NCBI RefSeq assembly: GCF_900113415.1
Contig: NZ_FOPH01000003.1
Span: forward strand, 62,001-126,000
Length of the DNA stretch: 64,000 nucleotides
Source: Oribacterium sp. WCC10
GTDB lineage: Bacteria; Bacillota; Clostridia; Lachnospirales; Lachnospiraceae
Direction of reading: 5' to 3'
Positions within the stretch are counted from its first letter, which is position 1, and each line of letters starts with the position of its first letter. The position numbers were made by a program, and so were the translations under genes. Shown here piece by piece: positions 27,740 through 53,455 of this stretch. The notes below the pieces were generated by a model. The model did no database searches. It was not told the origin of the DNA and worked only from the letters and a program-made list of their open reading frames with translations.

Positions 27740-28258
27740 TCAGCTTAGTAACTGTTTTACTATAAATGCATATATTTCCTGGTTTTTCTGACCCCATTTC
27801 GCACACATACGCTCAGCCGATTCCTTATCCGGGACATTGATATCAATGGCATAAAGTATAGAGTTTTCCTCTCTGACCTCGGCATGAACTATGTATTCGC
27901 CATTCTCAGTCTCAAAATAATCTGTATAGTTTGAAGATTCCTGTCTGAGCTGTACCTTGTTTTCCTTCAGGAAACGGTTCATGTCTTCTACGGCACCGGA
28001 GGAGATGTCATTGCCGAAAAGTTCTATGGTATTGGAACCCTCCTGAGTTATCTCGTATCTGGTTGACTTTTTGCTCTGGTGGGTCTTGATCAGACCTGCA
28101 TCATCAAGCTCTGATATGGCCTGCTGCAATGTGAAGTAGGTGGTGTATTCATAGTCGAGAAAGAAACCGCTGAGTTGATTATTGGTTAAAGGATAGTTTA
28201 CAGTCTTTAATAAGTAAAGAATCATCAATTTATAGAGAGTCAGTGGTTCTGTTATCAT
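27740..28258 (-). CDS. DUF4364 family winged-helix protein
   Basis: A 172-residue protein. The first 70 residues resemble a winged helix (LYKLMILYLLKTVNYPLTNNQLSGFFL, TLQQAISELDDAGLI, STRYEITQEG). The rest is an alpha/beta domain seen in the DUF4364 family of Clostridia, presumed to be transcriptional regulators. I chose the start at 28258, where AAAGGAAG lies upstream on the minus strand; a longer in-frame extension to 28405 has no ribosome site and odd composition. It is divergent from the DUF5717 operon, so it could regulate that operon (inference). Confidence 0.85.
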   Translation of the reverse strand: MITEPLTLYKLMILYLLKTVNYPLTNNQLSGFFLDYEYTTYFTLQQAISELDDAGLIKTHQSKKSTRYEITQEGSNTIELFGNDISSGAVEDMNRFLKENKVQLRQESSNYTDYFETENGEYIVHAEVREENSILYAIDINVPDKESAERMCAKWGQKNQEIYAFIVKQLLS

Positions 28259-28523: not shown

Positions 28524-31208
28524 ATGAAAGAACGTATAAATAAACTAGCAAGAGGGATAGTTGAGCTTGATAAACCGGAACTTAAACTTAGCGATGAGTC
28601 ATTTAAGGGTACGGTTAATGCAGGAGAGCTCGCTAAATTTGAACTCATACTTTATTCGGAAAATGGGATATTACTAAAGGGCCTTATATATTCGGACAAT
28701 CCTAATGTCACTGTACAAAAGGATGCATTTGGAGGCATCCGTTCACGCATTAAGTGTAATGTTGATACACGTAAGCTTAAGGACGGTGACAAGGTAGAGG
28801 GTCAGCTTTATATCGTGTCAAACGGAGGCGAAGTACAGCTTCCGTATTCTTTTGATGTCCGTTCATCATACAGGTCCGGTGAGATCATTTCAGGTATTCA
28901 TACCAAAGAGGATTATATAAATCTTTGTAATGATAATGAAGAGCTCGCACTTCGTGTTTTCGATTATTGTGATTTTCAGGATGCTGAATTCATGCAGGAT
29001 TCAAGACTCTTCACTATATATCAGGGACTGAAAAGCGGTCAGGACAGAAGCATTGCCCACAGACAGTTTCTTATTGCTTTACAGAATACTGCTGACAGAA
29101 AGACCGATACGTCAAAGGAAACATTACTTGAAGCTGCTAAGAAAACTGCAGCTTCTCCGAAGCTGCAGGATGTTTTTGCATTAAGTGTAGAAGATAAGCC
29201 GCTTATCGAAAAGGCTGCGGGAATCTGCATCAGAGAAGGCGCTACAGACAAGATGGCATTTGACATTTATCAGAGAGCCATTGAGATGGGATCAACCATC
29301 ACAAGATTGTATGAATACTACATTTATGCCATGCCTAAGGGCTGGGATGGTAAACTTCCAAGAGAGGTTTACCTGTATTTTGCGTACGAGAAGGTTATAG
29401 AGGAAAATATGAAGCTTCCTCTTTTCTACAATATACTTGTGAATTTTGATGACAAAGATGACATATATCAGCGTTTCGAGCATAAGATTCAAAGCTTTGC
29501 CATAGATAAGCTTCTGAGATCGGAATTCGACCAGCGACTTAGTGTCATTTATGACAGAATGATTCTTTCCGATATGATCGACGAAAGGATTGCATCGGTA
29601 CTTCCTGCCATATTGCGTTCCTACAGGATAACTACTGATGATAAGCGCATGAGTTTTGTTGTCATAAAGTATCGTGAACTTGACCGCGAGGAAGTATATG
29701 CTCTTAAGGATGGCGTGGCTTATGTGCCTGTATTCTTTGAGAACAGTGAGATACTTTTTCAGGATGTCTATGGAAACAGATATATCGATGTAAAGTATGA
29801 TATGACACGTATCATGCATAAAGAGAGTCTGGAAAAGAAGTGCTTTGAGATACTTCCAGAGCATGCCATGTTGAAACTGTCGAAGGCCAGATCCATAGCA
29901 AAGAGCGGCATAGACAGTATTAATCAGCTTAGACTTGTGGAACAGGTTGTAAACGATATGGATATATCAAGGCCATACCGTTTATTCCTTCAGCATGCAG
30001 TGCTTTCATATCATGATGATCATACCAGGGACTCTGATAAGAGTATCAGTGATATGGATATAGATTTCCTCAGAAGCCTTGATATCGTTTATCTTAGTCA
30101 CGAGGATATCGACAGTTTACTTCGGACTTATATAAAGCTTAATCTTTTCAAGGAAGCATACGAGATTGTTCTGGAGACAGGTGAACCGGATATCAAGCGC
30201 CAGTACCTTGAAAAACTTTGCCGTGCCATCATTGAAGATGAGAAGCATGGACGTTCCAAAGAAGTGATGATGCTTGCTCTTCAGATTTTTCAGATGGGAA
30301 CAAATGACAAGGATATCATCAGATTCCTTTTAAAGGAGTATAACGGTCTGTCCAGAGATATGCTTGCCATCTTAAGAAGAGGCAGGAAGACCGGCGTCGA
30401 TGCTTCTGATATGACAGAAAGACTTCTTGCCCAGATGATCTTCAGTTGGACAGAGGATGGACTCGATGAGGTTTACCACATTTACAGAGAGCAGCCTTCA
30501 CAGCAGAATATTCTGATCAGGGCTTATATTACCAAGCGTTGTATAGACTACTTTATATACGGTCAGAAGATTTCGGACGATGTATTTTCGGATGTGTTCG
30601 GGATCATTCGTGATGAGAGATACAAAGACAGAGTACCTATGATATACCTGCTTGCCATGTCAAAACATATGGCAGAAAACAAAAAGCTGACAGGAGAAGA
30701 AAAACTCATTCTTCAGGATGTCATGGACATTCTTATCCAAAAGAAGATGATTTTCCAGTATACAAGAACTCTCAGTGATGTTATACGTATACCTGATTTT
30801 GTCATGGACAAATATTATATCGAATATCATGGAGATAAGACCATTCGTCCGTCACTCTATATGAGGATACTACCGGATGAACATGATTTTGAAGAGGAAG
30901 AGATCAGCAGAGTATATCAGAACATTTATGTTCGACCGGTGACATTATTCACCAGGGAAAAGGCTGAGTATCAGATCTATGATGAGACTAAGGGCAATGA
31001 TATCGTTATGAGCGGAACAATTAAAGCTGATAACAGTATCCGTCTCAAGGGAGATACCTTTGATATCTTAAACGAAATGTCAGGCCTGCTTGGTCAGGAT
31101 AATGATAGAGAGCTTCGCGAAGTGATGCTTCGCTATGTGAGAAATGAGTCGGTCATTGAAGAACTTTTCACCAAAGAATTGACCGAAACGAAAGATAAGG
31201 AGCAATGA
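28524..31208 (+). CDS. DUF5717 family protein, large helical-repeat protein
   Basis: An 894-residue protein with no signal peptide or membrane segment. The N-terminal 25-125 region is beta-rich and Ig/OB-like (GTVNAGELAKFELILYS, VSNGGEVQLPYSFDV). The long centre (about 130-760) is alpha-helical, with repeat-like stretches resembling TPR/HEAT units. The C-terminal 780-870 is beta-rich again. I recognise it only as DUF5717, found in Lachnospiraceae. It is followed after 4 bases by an Hsp70-like DUF5716 ATPase and then a TPR protein, so all three likely work together. CCCGGAG lies upstream of the ATG. Confidence 0.8.
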   Translation: MKERINKLARGIVELDKPELKLSDESFKGTVNAGELAKFELILYSENGILLKGLIYSDNPNVTVQKDAFGGIRSRIKCNVDTRKLKDGDKVEGQLYIVSNGGEVQLPYSFDVRSSYRSGEIISGIHTKEDYINLCNDNEELALRVFDYCDFQDAEFMQDSRLFTIYQGLKSGQDRSIAHRQFLIALQNTADRKTDTSKETLLEAAKKTAASPKLQDVFALSVEDKPLIEKAAGICIREGATDKMAFDIYQRAIEMGSTITRLYEYYIYAMPKGWDGKLPREVYLYFAYEKVIEENMKLPLFYNILVNFDDKDDIYQRFEHKIQSFAIDKLLRSEFDQRLSVIYDRMILSDMIDERIASVLPAILRSYRITTDDKRMSFVVIKYRELDREEVYALKDGVAYVPVFFENSEILFQDVYGNRYIDVKYDMTRIMHKESLEKKCFEILPEHAMLKLSKARSIAKSGIDSINQLRLVEQVVNDMDISRPYRLFLQHAVLSYHDDHTRDSDKSISDMDIDFLRSLDIVYLSHEDIDSLLRTYIKLNLFKEAYEIVLETGEPDIKRQYLEKLCRAIIEDEKHGRSKEVMMLALQIFQMGTNDKDIIRFLLKEYNGLSRDMLAILRRGRKTGVDASDMTERLLAQMIFSWTEDGLDEVYHIYREQPSQQNILIRAYITKRCIDYFIYGQKISDDVFSDVFGIIRDERYKDRVPMIYLLAMSKHMAENKKLTGEEKLILQDVMDILIQKKMIFQYTRTLSDVIRIPDFVMDKYYIEYHGDKTIRPSLYMRILPDEHDFEEEEISRVYQNIYVRPVTLFTREKAEYQIYDETKGNDIVMSGTIKADNSIRLKGDTFDILNEMSGLLGQDNDRELREVMLRYVRNESVIEELFTKELTETKDKEQ

Positions 31209-31212
31209 TTAA

Positions 31213-32430
31213 GTGAATCGCTACATTGGAATTTCACTAAATGATGACTATACGTGCATCTGCATAAATGATAAAACGGTTTCAAGATTTCAACCGACTG
31301 TTATCGCAAAGGATAAAAAGGAAGATGAGTGGACCATAGGAGAAGATGCTTATAAGGCTACTCTTGCCGGTTCAGGCGTCATTGTTGATAAGCTGTTGAG
31401 CCTTCTTGAAAAGAACGGAACTGCGACGATTTCCAGAATAAAATACAATGCTGTGGATATTCTTGCACATTATTTTCATGAACTTCTCGGAAAAGACAGT
31501 GGCGGTTCAGAGGATGATATCGTTGCTGTATCCATTAGAAAGCCCGGTCGTGAGATTGTGAATAAGCTTAAGGAAGCACTTATCAGAGCGGGTGTACATG
31601 AAAACAATATTTACATAGTGAGCCATACCGAAAGTTTTGCCCACTTTGTTCTGGATCAGGACAGCAGTTTATATAACCGCATGGTTGGCATGTTCGAGCT
31701 CAACAATCAGTGCCTTTACTATTATGAGATGCATGTTTCGAGAGGAACCAGACGTTATGTTATGGTTGGGTCAGAGGCGGAAGAGGAAGCATTTAATCTC
31801 GATATCCTTAAGACTGCATCAGGTGGAAAGATCGCTGACAAGATATTGAGCACTGTTGCTGAAAGAGTCATGAGTAAAAATTCATATTCTTCAGTGTTTT
31901 TATCCGGAAGAGGTTTTCAGGATACAAACTTTGCAACAAACTTCATGAACTTCATCTGCAAGCGTCGCAGAGTGCTTATAGAGCCCGGTATGTTTGCCAT
32001 TGGAGCCGAGATATATGTCAAGAATATGGCTGATGGCAAGAATGACGAGTATATGATCTTATGTGACACCCGTTGCAATTCGGATGTTTCGGTTAAGGTA
32101 TTGGTTAATGAAAAGATTGAAACTCTTCCGATTGTCCGTGCCGGTGAGAGTTGGATGGATACGAGTGCAAGTTATGAGATGATACTTGATGATCAGGATT
32201 TTATTGATTTTCAGGTCACATCAATTACAAAGCCTCAGAGACCTTTGAGACTGCGTATGATGCTTGATACTTTTCCACAAAGAGAAAGCCGCACGACAAG
32301 GATACGTATGTCTACGGAGTTTGCTGATGCGGATACTCTTCGTGTAACAGTTAAGGATTTGGGCTTCGGAGATCTCTTCCCTGCCTCTGATAAGGAGATA
32401 GTTGAAGAGATAGATTTGTCGGAAAAATAA
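31213..32430 (+). CDS. DUF5716 family protein, Hsp70/actin-like ATPase
   Basis: 405 residues, start GTG 31213 behind AAGGAG. The first ~270 residues look like an Hsp70/actin (ASKHA) ATPase. A phosphate-1 hairpin YIGISLNDDYTCICI is at 4-18, a second strand-turn VGMFELNNQCLYYYEM at about 158-173, and an adenosine-type SSVFLSGRGF at 226-235. Residues 275-395 are beta-rich. Part of them (TFPQRESRTTRIRMS..DTLRVTVKD) aligns by eye with the substrate-binding beta domain of Hsp70. Classic phosphate-1 residues (DLGTT) are poorly conserved, so ATP hydrolysis is uncertain. The family is DUF5716; its function is not established to my knowledge. Confidence 0.75.
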   Translation: MNRYIGISLNDDYTCICINDKTVSRFQPTVIAKDKKEDEWTIGEDAYKATLAGSGVIVDKLLSLLEKNGTATISRIKYNAVDILAHYFHELLGKDSGGSEDDIVAVSIRKPGREIVNKLKEALIRAGVHENNIYIVSHTESFAHFVLDQDSSLYNRMVGMFELNNQCLYYYEMHVSRGTRRYVMVGSEAEEEAFNLDILKTASGGKIADKILSTVAERVMSKNSYSSVFLSGRGFQDTNFATNFMNFICKRRRVLIEPGMFAIGAEIYVKNMADGKNDEYMILCDTRCNSDVSVKVLVNEKIETLPIVRAGESWMDTSASYEMILDDQDFIDFQVTSITKPQRPLRLRMMLDTFPQRESRTTRIRMSTEFADADTLRVTVKDLGFGDLFPASDKEIVEEIDLSEK

Positions 32431-32446
32431 GTTATAGGATAAATTC

Positions 32447-33238
32447 ATGGGATTACTACTATGTAATAAGGGTGCAAGGCATCCGTTCTATTATGAGAAG
32501 CTTGATATAGATATATGGTCTATTCAGGAACTGAGCTATGTCATATACAGGTATCCGGTCATCATCCCTTCGGATTTTGTTGACCATAAACTTACGACGT
32601 GGATAAGAGATGAGTTGTCCATGGGCATTCTTGCCGCGAAGCTCGAACAGTTTATGGGAGCCGGGGATGACACTGATCAGGAGCGATTACTGCTTATGAT
32701 CCTGAGAGAGAGCAATTACTACACTCAGGTCGAGATTTCACGCTTTGAGTCAGAGTATAAAAAGCTAAGAAACATTGACAGACATGTATTTTTGAACATG
32801 TTGGGAGACACCTACTTCCGTATGGGAAGATACGGAAGGGCCATAGAGTCTTATGAGGAATCACTTCTTGCAGAAGTGGATACCGGAGTACAGATGAAGC
32901 TGGCCGGAACTTATGTGACAGTTATGCAGTTCCGTAAGGCGGCGGATCTTTATGAGGAAGTATATGTTACCACAGTTTCCCAGGAGCCGTTACGAAAGCT
33001 GTATTTCATAAGTAAATTAGAGCCGTCTGTCAATACTATCGAAAAGTATCTTGATACTATCGATGTAGAAACTCTTGCAGATTGGGAGCAAGAGTATGAT
33101 AATGTACAGGCAAAGGCTGAGCACGATGAACGTGCCATGGAAATATTTGATTTATATCAGAAAAGCCATTCGGAATTCCGTGAACATGCGAAGATCATGG
33201 TCTTAAAGTGGAAACGCGAATACAGGGCAAAAATCTGA
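32447..33238 (+). CDS. TPR-containing protein, third gene of the DUF5717/DUF5716 operon
   Basis: A 263-residue cytoplasmic protein. Its centre has clear tetratricopeptide units (LNMLGDTYFRMGRYGRAIESYEESLL, MKLAGTYVTVMQFRKAADLYEEVYV). The N-terminal part (FYYEKLDIDIWSIQELSYVIYRYP) looks lineage-specific, and the C-terminal 200-263 is helical and charged. It starts 16 bases after the DUF5716 stop with a weak ribosome site (AGGAT), suggesting translational coupling. TPR proteins often serve as Hsp70 partners, which fits its upstream neighbour, but direct binding is inference. Confidence 0.75.
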   Translation: MGLLLCNKGARHPFYYEKLDIDIWSIQELSYVIYRYPVIIPSDFVDHKLTTWIRDELSMGILAAKLEQFMGAGDDTDQERLLLMILRESNYYTQVEISRFESEYKKLRNIDRHVFLNMLGDTYFRMGRYGRAIESYEESLLAEVDTGVQMKLAGTYVTVMQFRKAADLYEEVYVTTVSQEPLRKLYFISKLEPSVNTIEKYLDTIDVETLADWEQEYDNVQAKAEHDERAMEIFDLYQKSHSEFREHAKIMVLKWKREYRAKI

Positions 33239-53243: not shown

Positions 53244-53303
53244 ACTGATAACAAAAAGAAATTTTCTCACAGAATTCAATCTGAGAGTATGATTTCATAT
53301 ATA

Positions 53304-53410
53304 GATCTTCAGGGAAGGTGAAATTCCTTATCGGCGGTATAGCCCGCGAGCCTTTTGGCATGATCCGGTTTGATTCCGGGGCCGACAGTAAAGTCTGGAT
53401 GAAAGAAGAT
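53304..53410 (+). promoter_or_regulatory. FMN riboswitch (RFN element)
   Basis: The conserved core is clear: ATCTTCAGGG start, AGGTGAAATTCC, GGCGGTATAGCCCGCGAGCC, GATCCGGTTTGATTCCGG, GCCGACAGTAAAGTCTGGAT, and the closing GAAAGAAGAT. It binds flavin mononucleotide and switches off the downstream rib genes. Confidence 0.97.
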
Positions 53411-53455
53411 GTGTGACAGATCGATGATTCGATTTTTTGCTTTTGTATGAAGCTG

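Follow-up and report, generated by a model that had tools for sequence, protein, structure and literature searches.

A conserved three-gene unit of Lachnospiraceae with an apparently ATPase-dead Hsp70 relative as its middle gene product

The closest published relatives of the locus described here are, in our treatment, the GAP1-N2 GTPase systems, about 14% of them with HSP70 and GrpE (Kaur et al., 2020, eLife 9:e52696, PMC7159879). In the main text of that paper the HSP70/GrpE theme is reported from Firmicutes and Actinobacteria, a subset has a second HSP70-domain protein, the FNIII protein is typically fused to DnaJ or TPR, and neither DUF5716 nor DnaK is named. Our subject is a unit of three genes, encoding a DUF5717, a DUF5716 and a TPR protein, in a stretch of 64,000 nucleotides from Oribacterium sp. 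WCC10 (family Lachnospiraceae; contig NZ_FOPH01000003.1, positions 62,001 to 126,000), hereafter the window. DUF5716 is by predicted fold an Hsp70 relative that seems to have lost its ATPase, and related families carry the same genes in a larger operon with three Hsp70s and GrpE (the outgroup operon). As far as the published text describes them, the GAP1-N2 HSP70/GrpE systems share with our loci the HSP70, the GrpE, the second HSP70-family gene (in a subset) and possibly a beta-sandwich protein with TPR or DnaJ parts. They differ in that the outgroup operon has three intact Hsp70s, one of them VWA-fused, in that DUF5716 keeps a beta substrate-like domain, looks ATPase-dead and is near-universal in Lachnospiraceae, and in that the Lachnospiraceae unit has no intact Hsp70 or GrpE gene, both of which are present in the outgroup operon. 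The theme's FNIII-TPR/DnaJ protein may have a counterpart here in DUF5717, with an Ig-like PapD/ASH domain and a solenoid. We do not file the three-gene unit under the GAP1-N2 systems. Searches of open-access full text by name returned nothing for DUF5717 and, for DUF5716, a single mention in a computational study of curcuma derivatives; open-access searches on the features of the system gave only Kaur et al. (2020) as relevant, and nothing on a bacterial pseudo-Hsp70 or a Lachnospiraceae HSP70-VWA protein.

The open reading frame (ORF) list confirms the three frames of 894, 405 and 263 residues, with gaps of 4 and 16 bases, from which the original prediction started. The genes and their parts are as follows.

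28524..31208, + strand: gene A, DUF5717, 894 aa (ORF list and Pfam)
28572..28865, + strand: PapD/ASH/MSP-like Ig domain of DUF5717, residues 17–114 (VIA, Foldseek)
28872..30806, + strand: helical solenoid of DUF5717, residues 117–761, with a beta insert at 366–430 (model secondary structure)
31213..32430, + strand: gene B, DUF5716, 405 aa, GTG start (ORF list and Pfam)
31213..32052, + strand: nucleotide-domain part of DUF5716, about residues 1–280 (VIA and residue alignment)
32053..32415, + strand: beta substrate-binding-like domain of DUF5716, about residues 281–401, without the alpha lid (model, VIA)
32263..32382, + strand: signature L..P.RP..TTR...D.GFGE.FP, residues 351–390, at the end of the DUF5716 beta domain (alignments)
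32447..33238, + strand: gene C, TPR protein, 263 aa (ORF list)

Pfam assigns DUF5717_N (4.7e-128) and DUF5717 (2.2e-61) to the product of gene A, the open frame of which can be extended to 28371 via an in-frame TTG, and DUF5716_C (7e-84, residues 104–402) to that of gene B. One stretch of gene C is matched by TPR models, with every match under the Pfam cut-offs, and an NCBIfam scan of the window proteins returned nothing informative. The closest named loci are those of Oribacterium, with 84% identity in DUF5716.

The AlphaFold model of DUF5716 (pLDDT 87.6, pTM 0.86) shows the ASKHA fold of an Hsp70 together with a beta substrate domain, as the original prediction had proposed, and both Foldseek and VIA agree with this assignment. 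The best Foldseek match in the PDB has an E value of 1.3e-17 (4ani_C), and VIA superimposes the model on DnaK (7kru_A) with a Z score of 22.2 and an r.m.s.d. of 5.2 for 375 aligned residues. Residues 2–403 align with residues 2–504 of DnaK, which places the beta domain after the nucleotide domain. Ssz1 (5mb9, 6sr6 and 4gni; Z 21.7–22.1) is tied with DnaK in VIA, the similarity also reaches Sse1 (Foldseek/VIA), and of 7rax only 278/393 residues are aligned to the model (VIA), in keeping with an incomplete nucleotide domain. The alpha-helical lid is absent from the model, the chain of which stops four residues past the last beta strand. At the sequence level PF00012 gives no row against the window DUF5716 at E up to 10, and a PDB sequence search with it gives a best E of only 0.12. 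DUF5716 thus resembles DnaK/Hsp70 in its nucleotide-domain fold and beta substrate domain (Z 22) and, through the outgroup proteins, in sequence homology, but it lacks the catalytic residues, most of lobe IIB and the alpha lid. Ssz1 is likewise an Hsp70 relative, with a beta domain that can hold a pseudo substrate according to the title of entry 6sr6; it differs in being eukaryotic, in having a J protein of a kind not found in the bacterial operon, and in that DUF5716 is closest to the HSP70b of its own operon. The strongest sequence signature of DUF5716 lies at the end of the beta domain, where Arg357, Asp382, Gly384, Phe385 and Gly386 are invariant in both Lachnospiraceae alignments (A1, 18 rows; A3, 34 rows) and the outgroup consensus (A7, 12 rows) is the same. 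The structure alignments took in 33 of the 44 named loci.

A chaperone-system origin for the unit, as originally suspected, is supported by the multi-Hsp70 operon of the related families. Its gene order is DUF5717 Ig part, DUF5717 solenoid (the two sometimes fused), HSP70a (about 559 aa), a GrpE-domain protein (mostly 560–650 aa), DUF5716 (457–538 aa), HSP70b (about 546 aa), HSP70c (about 692 aa) and a TPR protein (about 387 aa). Among the 19 outgroup loci fetched first, 18 have HSP70a, 17 have GrpE and 14 have DUF5716, several of the misses being stretch or contig ends; of the 12 extended loci, all have HSP70b, 11 have HSP70c and 11 have the TPR protein, each of the last two being split in one locus. 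Pfam detects a VWA domain in the HSP70c of L107 (7495–9573), which has intact ATPase residues, and the others match the full-length HSP70c model. A profile of gene C matches a protein in 11 of the 12 extended loci (E 5e-22 to 4e-35; the match in L106 is a 123-aa fragment, and L110 has none), and on this profile evidence gene C is homologous to the TPR protein that closes the outgroup operon. In 4 of the 12 extended loci the last gene of the operon encodes a coiled-coil protein that has hydrophobic segments and is probably bound to the membrane. It is also present behind gene C in 13 of the 20 broad Lachnospiraceae loci; in the window's genome its best score, 15 bits, is not a credible match. 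The Lachnospiraceae operons are without the active Hsp70s and GrpE of the outgroup operon. GrpE genes number two in 13/14 outgroup genomes and one in 3/3 Lachnospiraceae genomes and in the window's genome. Among the matches listed, the further Hsp70s of three Lachnospiraceae genomes (G447, G222 and G451) score 266–334 bits against the window DnaK and at most 235 against the operon classes, the members of which score over 1000 bits against their own class models; these extra Hsp70s are nearer to DnaK and are thus not the lost operon genes. The genomes compared for GrpE, for extra Hsp70s and for GAP1-N2 (below) were chosen, non-randomly, from operon-bearing ones.

The catalytic residues of these proteins (Asp8, Thr11, Lys70, Glu171, Asp194, Gly196–198, Thr199 and Asp201, in E. 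coli DnaK numbering) were counted across 117 aligned Hsp70-family proteins, the DnaK of the window's own genome serving as the reference. All are retained in HSP70a (18/18), HSP70b (12/12) and HSP70c (10/10). The outgroup DUF5716 proteins retain Lys70, Thr199 and Asp201 in 0/12 cases each, Glu171 in 2/12 and Thr11 in 5/12, and the Lachnospiraceae-type proteins retain Lys70, Glu171, Thr11 and Thr199 in 0/64 each and Asp201 in 1/64. The Lys70 and Thr199 equivalents are therefore missing in 76/76 DUF5716 proteins, Glu171 in 74/76 and Asp201 in 75/76, and the Gly-rich phosphate-2 loop is degenerate. The phosphate-1 loop had been described as weak; a defect is indeed present there, but with the Lys70 and Thr199 equivalents gone throughout it is more than a weakness. 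The counts omit L105 (its ORF was hidden by the ORF picker) and L159 (broken frames) altogether, L067 and L078 from the outgroup DUF5716 set (cut by stretch ends) and L106 from the HSP70c set (two ORFs), while the 64 Lachnospiraceae-type rows take in close relatives, L085 from a different family, and fragments such as L122, which begins at residue 108. Judged by these residues, DUF5716 seems to be ATPase-dead, and we infer that it would not turn over ATP in vitro.

Lobe IIB, which in Hsp70s has a GrpE-binding role, lies between the phosphate-2 loop and the adenosine motif. This stretch measures 143 residues in DnaK, 133–152 in the outgroup DUF5716 proteins and 60–78 in the Lachnospiraceae ones; in the window DUF5716 it is 70 residues, against 143 in the DnaK of the same genome. 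By this measure, most of lobe IIB is missing from Lachnospiraceae DUF5716. The catalytic residues appear to have been lost first, because outgroup DUF5716 is already without Lys70, Thr199 and Asp201 while its stretch is still 133–152 residues long, and it is in Lachnospiraceae, where the operon has no GrpE either, that most of the lobe has gone.

The outgroup proteins also link DUF5716 to Hsp70 by sequence, since the DUF5716 of L069 matches both PF18980 (1.5e-26) and PF00012 (1.4e-17). In profile–profile comparison the Lachnospiraceae DUF5716 matches outgroup DUF5716 with an E value of 7.8e-38 and HSP70a/b with 1.3e-13. Of the HSP70a, HSP70b and HSP70c models, HSP70b scores best for 12/12 outgroup DUF5716 proteins (median 226 bits, compared with 25 for HSP70a and 20 for HSP70c) and, weakly, for 64/64 Lachnospiraceae ones (median 15 bits, the others scoring below zero). 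As HSP70b scores best and its gene directly follows that of DUF5716 in 12/12 extended outgroup loci, DUF5716 is most simply read as a tandem duplicate of HSP70b. In a tree of 72 of the 117 rows (including 25 of the 64 Lachnospiraceae-type and 12 of the 18 HSP70a rows) the Lachnospiraceae-type DUF5716 proteins form one clade (support 100/100), the sister of which is the DUF5716 of genome G596 (support 100/98). The G596 operon retains all of the Hsp70 and GrpE genes, which makes derived reduction in Lachnospiraceae the simpler direction. This direction is to be read with the long outgroup branches in mind and with the fact that G749, a genome of another family, carries a Lachnospiraceae-type operon; G749 is listed as 86% complete with 5% contamination, so that both transfer and mis-binning are possible.

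DUF5716_C (PF18980) is found in 293 of 299 sampled genomes of the Lachnospiraceae and in 4 of 299 genomes sampled across the phylum, all four of them Lachnospiraceae. Of 196 genomes of the order, 94 have DUF5717_N (PF18984), 22 of them from Lachnospiraceae and 72 from other families, and a solenoid model run on 341 genomes of the class gave 13 strong matches in Lachnospiraceae and 4 weak ones elsewhere (E 2e-5 to 1e-3). From these matches we read the system as restricted to the order Lachnospirales, the weak solenoid matches in the class aside. A search for the HSP70-VWA protein in 249 genomes of the phylum at E 1e-150 is uninformative beyond the order, as the threshold was too strict and the sample contained no positive genome. 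The expected conservation of the three-gene neighbourhood was found in Lachnospiraceae, and the genes are usually together. DUF5717 and DUF5716 are same-strand neighbours in 62/64 loci, as are DUF5716 and the TPR gene, and all three stand together in 60/64 (20/20 broad family loci and 40/44 named loci). The script itself counted 19/20 broad loci; in L105 the DUF5716 gene was hidden by the ORF picker and was placed between its partners by PF18980. The four misses among the named loci are L122 (contig end at DUF5716), L159 (broken frames), and L146 and L157 (TPR gene not found). In 33/44 named loci the TPR gene overlaps that of DUF5716 by 4 bases.

DUF5717 consists, in its AlphaFold model (pLDDT 82.6, pTM 0.64), of an Ig-like domain (residues 17–114), helical repeats, a beta domain (residues 366–430), further repeats, and a C-terminal beta domain with a long helix. 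The best VIA row for the Ig domain is 7n6g_4C (Z 12.5, r.m.s.d. 2.2 for 98 aligned residues), and Foldseek matches the N-terminal domain to 3qbt and 2e6j. ASH/PapD-like domains, including those of HYDIN, CEP192, VAP-A, OCRL and PapD, resemble it with Z of about 10 to 12.5, but the likeness spans only about 98 residues, and in DUF5717 the domain is fused to a bacterial helical solenoid. The N-terminus had been called Ig/OB-like. The Ig part of that description holds, on the PapD/ASH-like VIA rows; an OB fold is not supported, as the VIA rows listed are Ig-like, with none for an OB fold, and the rest of the protein is barely covered. No fn3 family is listed for DUF5717 in the Pfam scans of the window and outgroup proteins. 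The long solenoid, also foreseen, is present in the secondary structure of the model; its Foldseek matches to PPR/TPR-type solenoids are weak (E above 0.001), and VIA barely covers the region. The window DUF5717 is a short form without 204 + 98 residues that are found in the Hungatella homologue L130, and the proteins of Oribacterium and L121 are equally short (893–895 aa). The DUF5717 of the Oribacterium lineage is accordingly about 300 residues shorter, with the remainder of the three-gene unit intact.

The reading that we favour, and consider on balance probable, is that DUF5716 is a nucleotide-independent pseudo-Hsp70 scaffold comparable to Ssz1. The ancestor would have been a dedicated Hsp70 machine of DUF5717, three intact Hsp70s (one VWA-fused), an elongated GrpE, the TPR protein and sometimes the coiled-coil protein, inside which DUF5716 would have arisen as a degenerate tandem copy of the active-type HSP70b. 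Lachnospiraceae would then have lost the intact Hsp70s and GrpE of the operon, and DUF5716 most of its lobe IIB, while DUF5717, DUF5716 and the TPR gene were kept, tightly packed, as a unit that now works without an ATPase cycle. In this arrangement DUF5717 may form a long scaffold on which DUF5716 docks via the rigid shell of its nucleotide domain. The DUF5716 beta domain could grip a segment of peptide from a partner or a client, in much the same way as Ssz1 within the ribosome-associated complex, and the TPR protein could add a second peptide-docking surface. Ssz1 is not known to hydrolyse ATP. The scaffolding, the complex of the three proteins and the holding of peptide are what we infer, beyond what the genes and their order, the distribution, the predicted folds, the losses of residues and lobe, the operon of the relatives and the tree show. 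A broader proposal, which we regard as evenly balanced, is that the unit is a near-universal 'post-Hsp70' scaffold, independent of nucleotide, in which a dead Hsp70 has outlived the three Hsp70s and GrpE of its operon to become a permanent core, the bacterial counterpart of Ssz1. Lachnospiraceae are abundant gut bacteria, and nearly all of the sampled genomes carry the three-gene unit. If the proposal is true, it offers a tangible example of a pseudoenzyme that has survived its enzymes, opens a core unit of a large bacterial family to testing, and connects two DUF families with the bacterial HSP70-GrpE-GTPase systems, the only ones described that our literature search surfaced.

Several observations weigh against this reconstruction. 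Asp8 and Asp194 are retained in 54/64 and 50/64 Lachnospiraceae-type DUF5716 proteins, respectively (in the window protein these positions are Ser and Glu), so that binding of nucleotide or Mg without hydrolysis is possible, and K60, a lysine conserved in the window's clade, stands two alignment positions off the Lys70 column, though not in L087. Conservation in the beta domain of the window protein (0.64 and 0.73) does not clearly exceed that elsewhere (0.65–0.73), which leaves peptide holding without a conservation argument of its own. G596, the key sister, has its HSP70c and TPR frames each split in two, and long branches leave some outgroup placements in the tree unsure. The parts of the operon are also not always linked, as judged from 18 further genomes of family f126 (20 stretches, L182–L201). 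HSP70a stands beside the DUF5717 gene in 5/18 of them (L182, L186, L194, L197 and L201), four of which also have GrpE and DUF5716, and in 13/18 the DUF5717 genes are without operon Hsp70 genes in the fetched stretch, several stretches being cut by contig ends. Weaker HSP70c labels in L182, L194 and L196 (173–305 bits; that of L194 is a fragment at the end of the stretch) are no evidence of HSP70c, since DnaK itself scores 301 against that model.

The strongest competing explanation, which we regard as possible yet doubtful, is that the unit acts as a co-chaperone of the housekeeping DnaK, bringing it to clients, with DUF5716 as a heterotypic partner in the manner of Hsp110 or the ribosome-associated complex. 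The outgroup operon does pair DUF5716 with intact Hsp70s, the structural similarity of DUF5716 extends to Sse1 and Ssz1, and the window's genome has a single GrpE gene beside a single DnaK gene at a locus away from the three-gene unit; a further partial Hsp70 match in this genome, in a 342-residue frame, is presumably MreB. A co-chaperone role is opposed by the lack of a helical lid in the model, by the loss of most of lobe IIB in Lachnospiraceae, and by the Pfam scans of the window and outgroup operon proteins, which list no J domain (for two TPR rows, among the matches listed).

An active, ATP-gated chaperone or assembly machine, in which DUF5716 cycles ATP with non-canonical residues and so moves DUF5717, is unlikely. 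The two-domain Hsp70 fold and the aspartates at positions 8 and 194 that most family members retain would suit it. The ATP-gated reading, which the original prediction had advanced, is nevertheless unsupported because the catalytic residues are lost (Lys70 and Thr199 in every DUF5716 protein, Glu171 and Asp201 in nearly all), the phosphate-2 loop is degenerate, and Lachnospiraceae lack most of lobe IIB as well as the operon's own GrpE.

A role in conflict or defence, after the pattern of the GAP1-N2 GTPase systems, is very unlikely. The published theme, in the text cited above, combines HSP70 and GrpE with an FNIII protein that carries a DnaJ or TPR fusion and, in a subset, with a further HSP70-domain protein, and in genome G773 the GrpE and DUF5716 genes adjoin, convergently, GAP1-N2/GAP1-M and DO-GTPase2 genes (L178, 4309–6892), with a type III restriction-modification pair further along. 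Among the fetched loci a DO-GTPase was seen beside DUF5716 in G773 only, no genome-wide DO-GTPase search having been made. No match to GAP1-N2 (PF20013) is present in the window's genome or in 16 of the 18 other genomes with the operon, so that 2/19 are positive (G773 and G675). In G675 the GAP1-N2 match is weak and stands at a locus of its own, together with a weak GTPase match and a tubulin-like gene. The f126 stretches contain no relatives of the L178/L179 GAP1/GTPase proteins at E 1e-5, and presence in 293/299 family genomes is unlike a patchy defence system. PADLOC gives no match for the window's three proteins at E 0.001. PDC-M61B is matched in part by the HSP70b (8.7e-11) and HSP70c (4.4e-7) of the outgroup, and PrimPol and PDC-M71B in part by its TPR protein (4e-6), which we read as shared Hsp70 and repeat domains.

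Compared with Oribacterium, the proportion of nonsynonymous differences (pN) is 0.09 for DUF5716, 0.18 for DUF5717 and 0.12 for the TPR protein, and that of synonymous differences (pS) is 0.71–0.77 (0.72–0.74 for DUF5716), near saturation. As pN is far below pS in all three genes, the unit appears to be maintained under strong purifying selection and not to be decaying. That it is a non-functional relic of a lost Hsp70 machine, as the missing catalytic residues, lobe IIB and partner genes might suggest, is scarcely credible given the presence in 293/299 genomes, the gene order kept in 60/64 loci and this selection, which largely refutes it unless the signal of selection is itself an artefact of saturated pS.

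The divergent neighbour of the unit is listed separately.

27740..28258, - strand: DUF4364 winged-helix gene (Pfam DUF4364, 3.8e-53)

Its proposed role as a dedicated regulator of the operon was rejected. DUF4364 is widespread in the class (130/148 sampled genomes) and its adjacency to the operon is clade-specific, with 2/20 broad family loci compared with 39/44 loci fetched as close relatives of the window; the gene probably lies outside the system. Downstream of the three-gene unit is a valyl-tRNA synthetase gene (Pfam). A CobD/HisC-like pyridoxal phosphate-dependent aminotransferase gene lies beside or close to the operon, within the fetched stretch, in 10/20 broad family loci and in 9/20 outgroup loci (L066–L085; for example L069, 9568–10713), two members having been identified by follow-up scans. 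Elsewhere in the window, positions 53301–53414 (+ strand) contain a flavin mononucleotide (FMN) riboswitch (RF00050, 104 bits).

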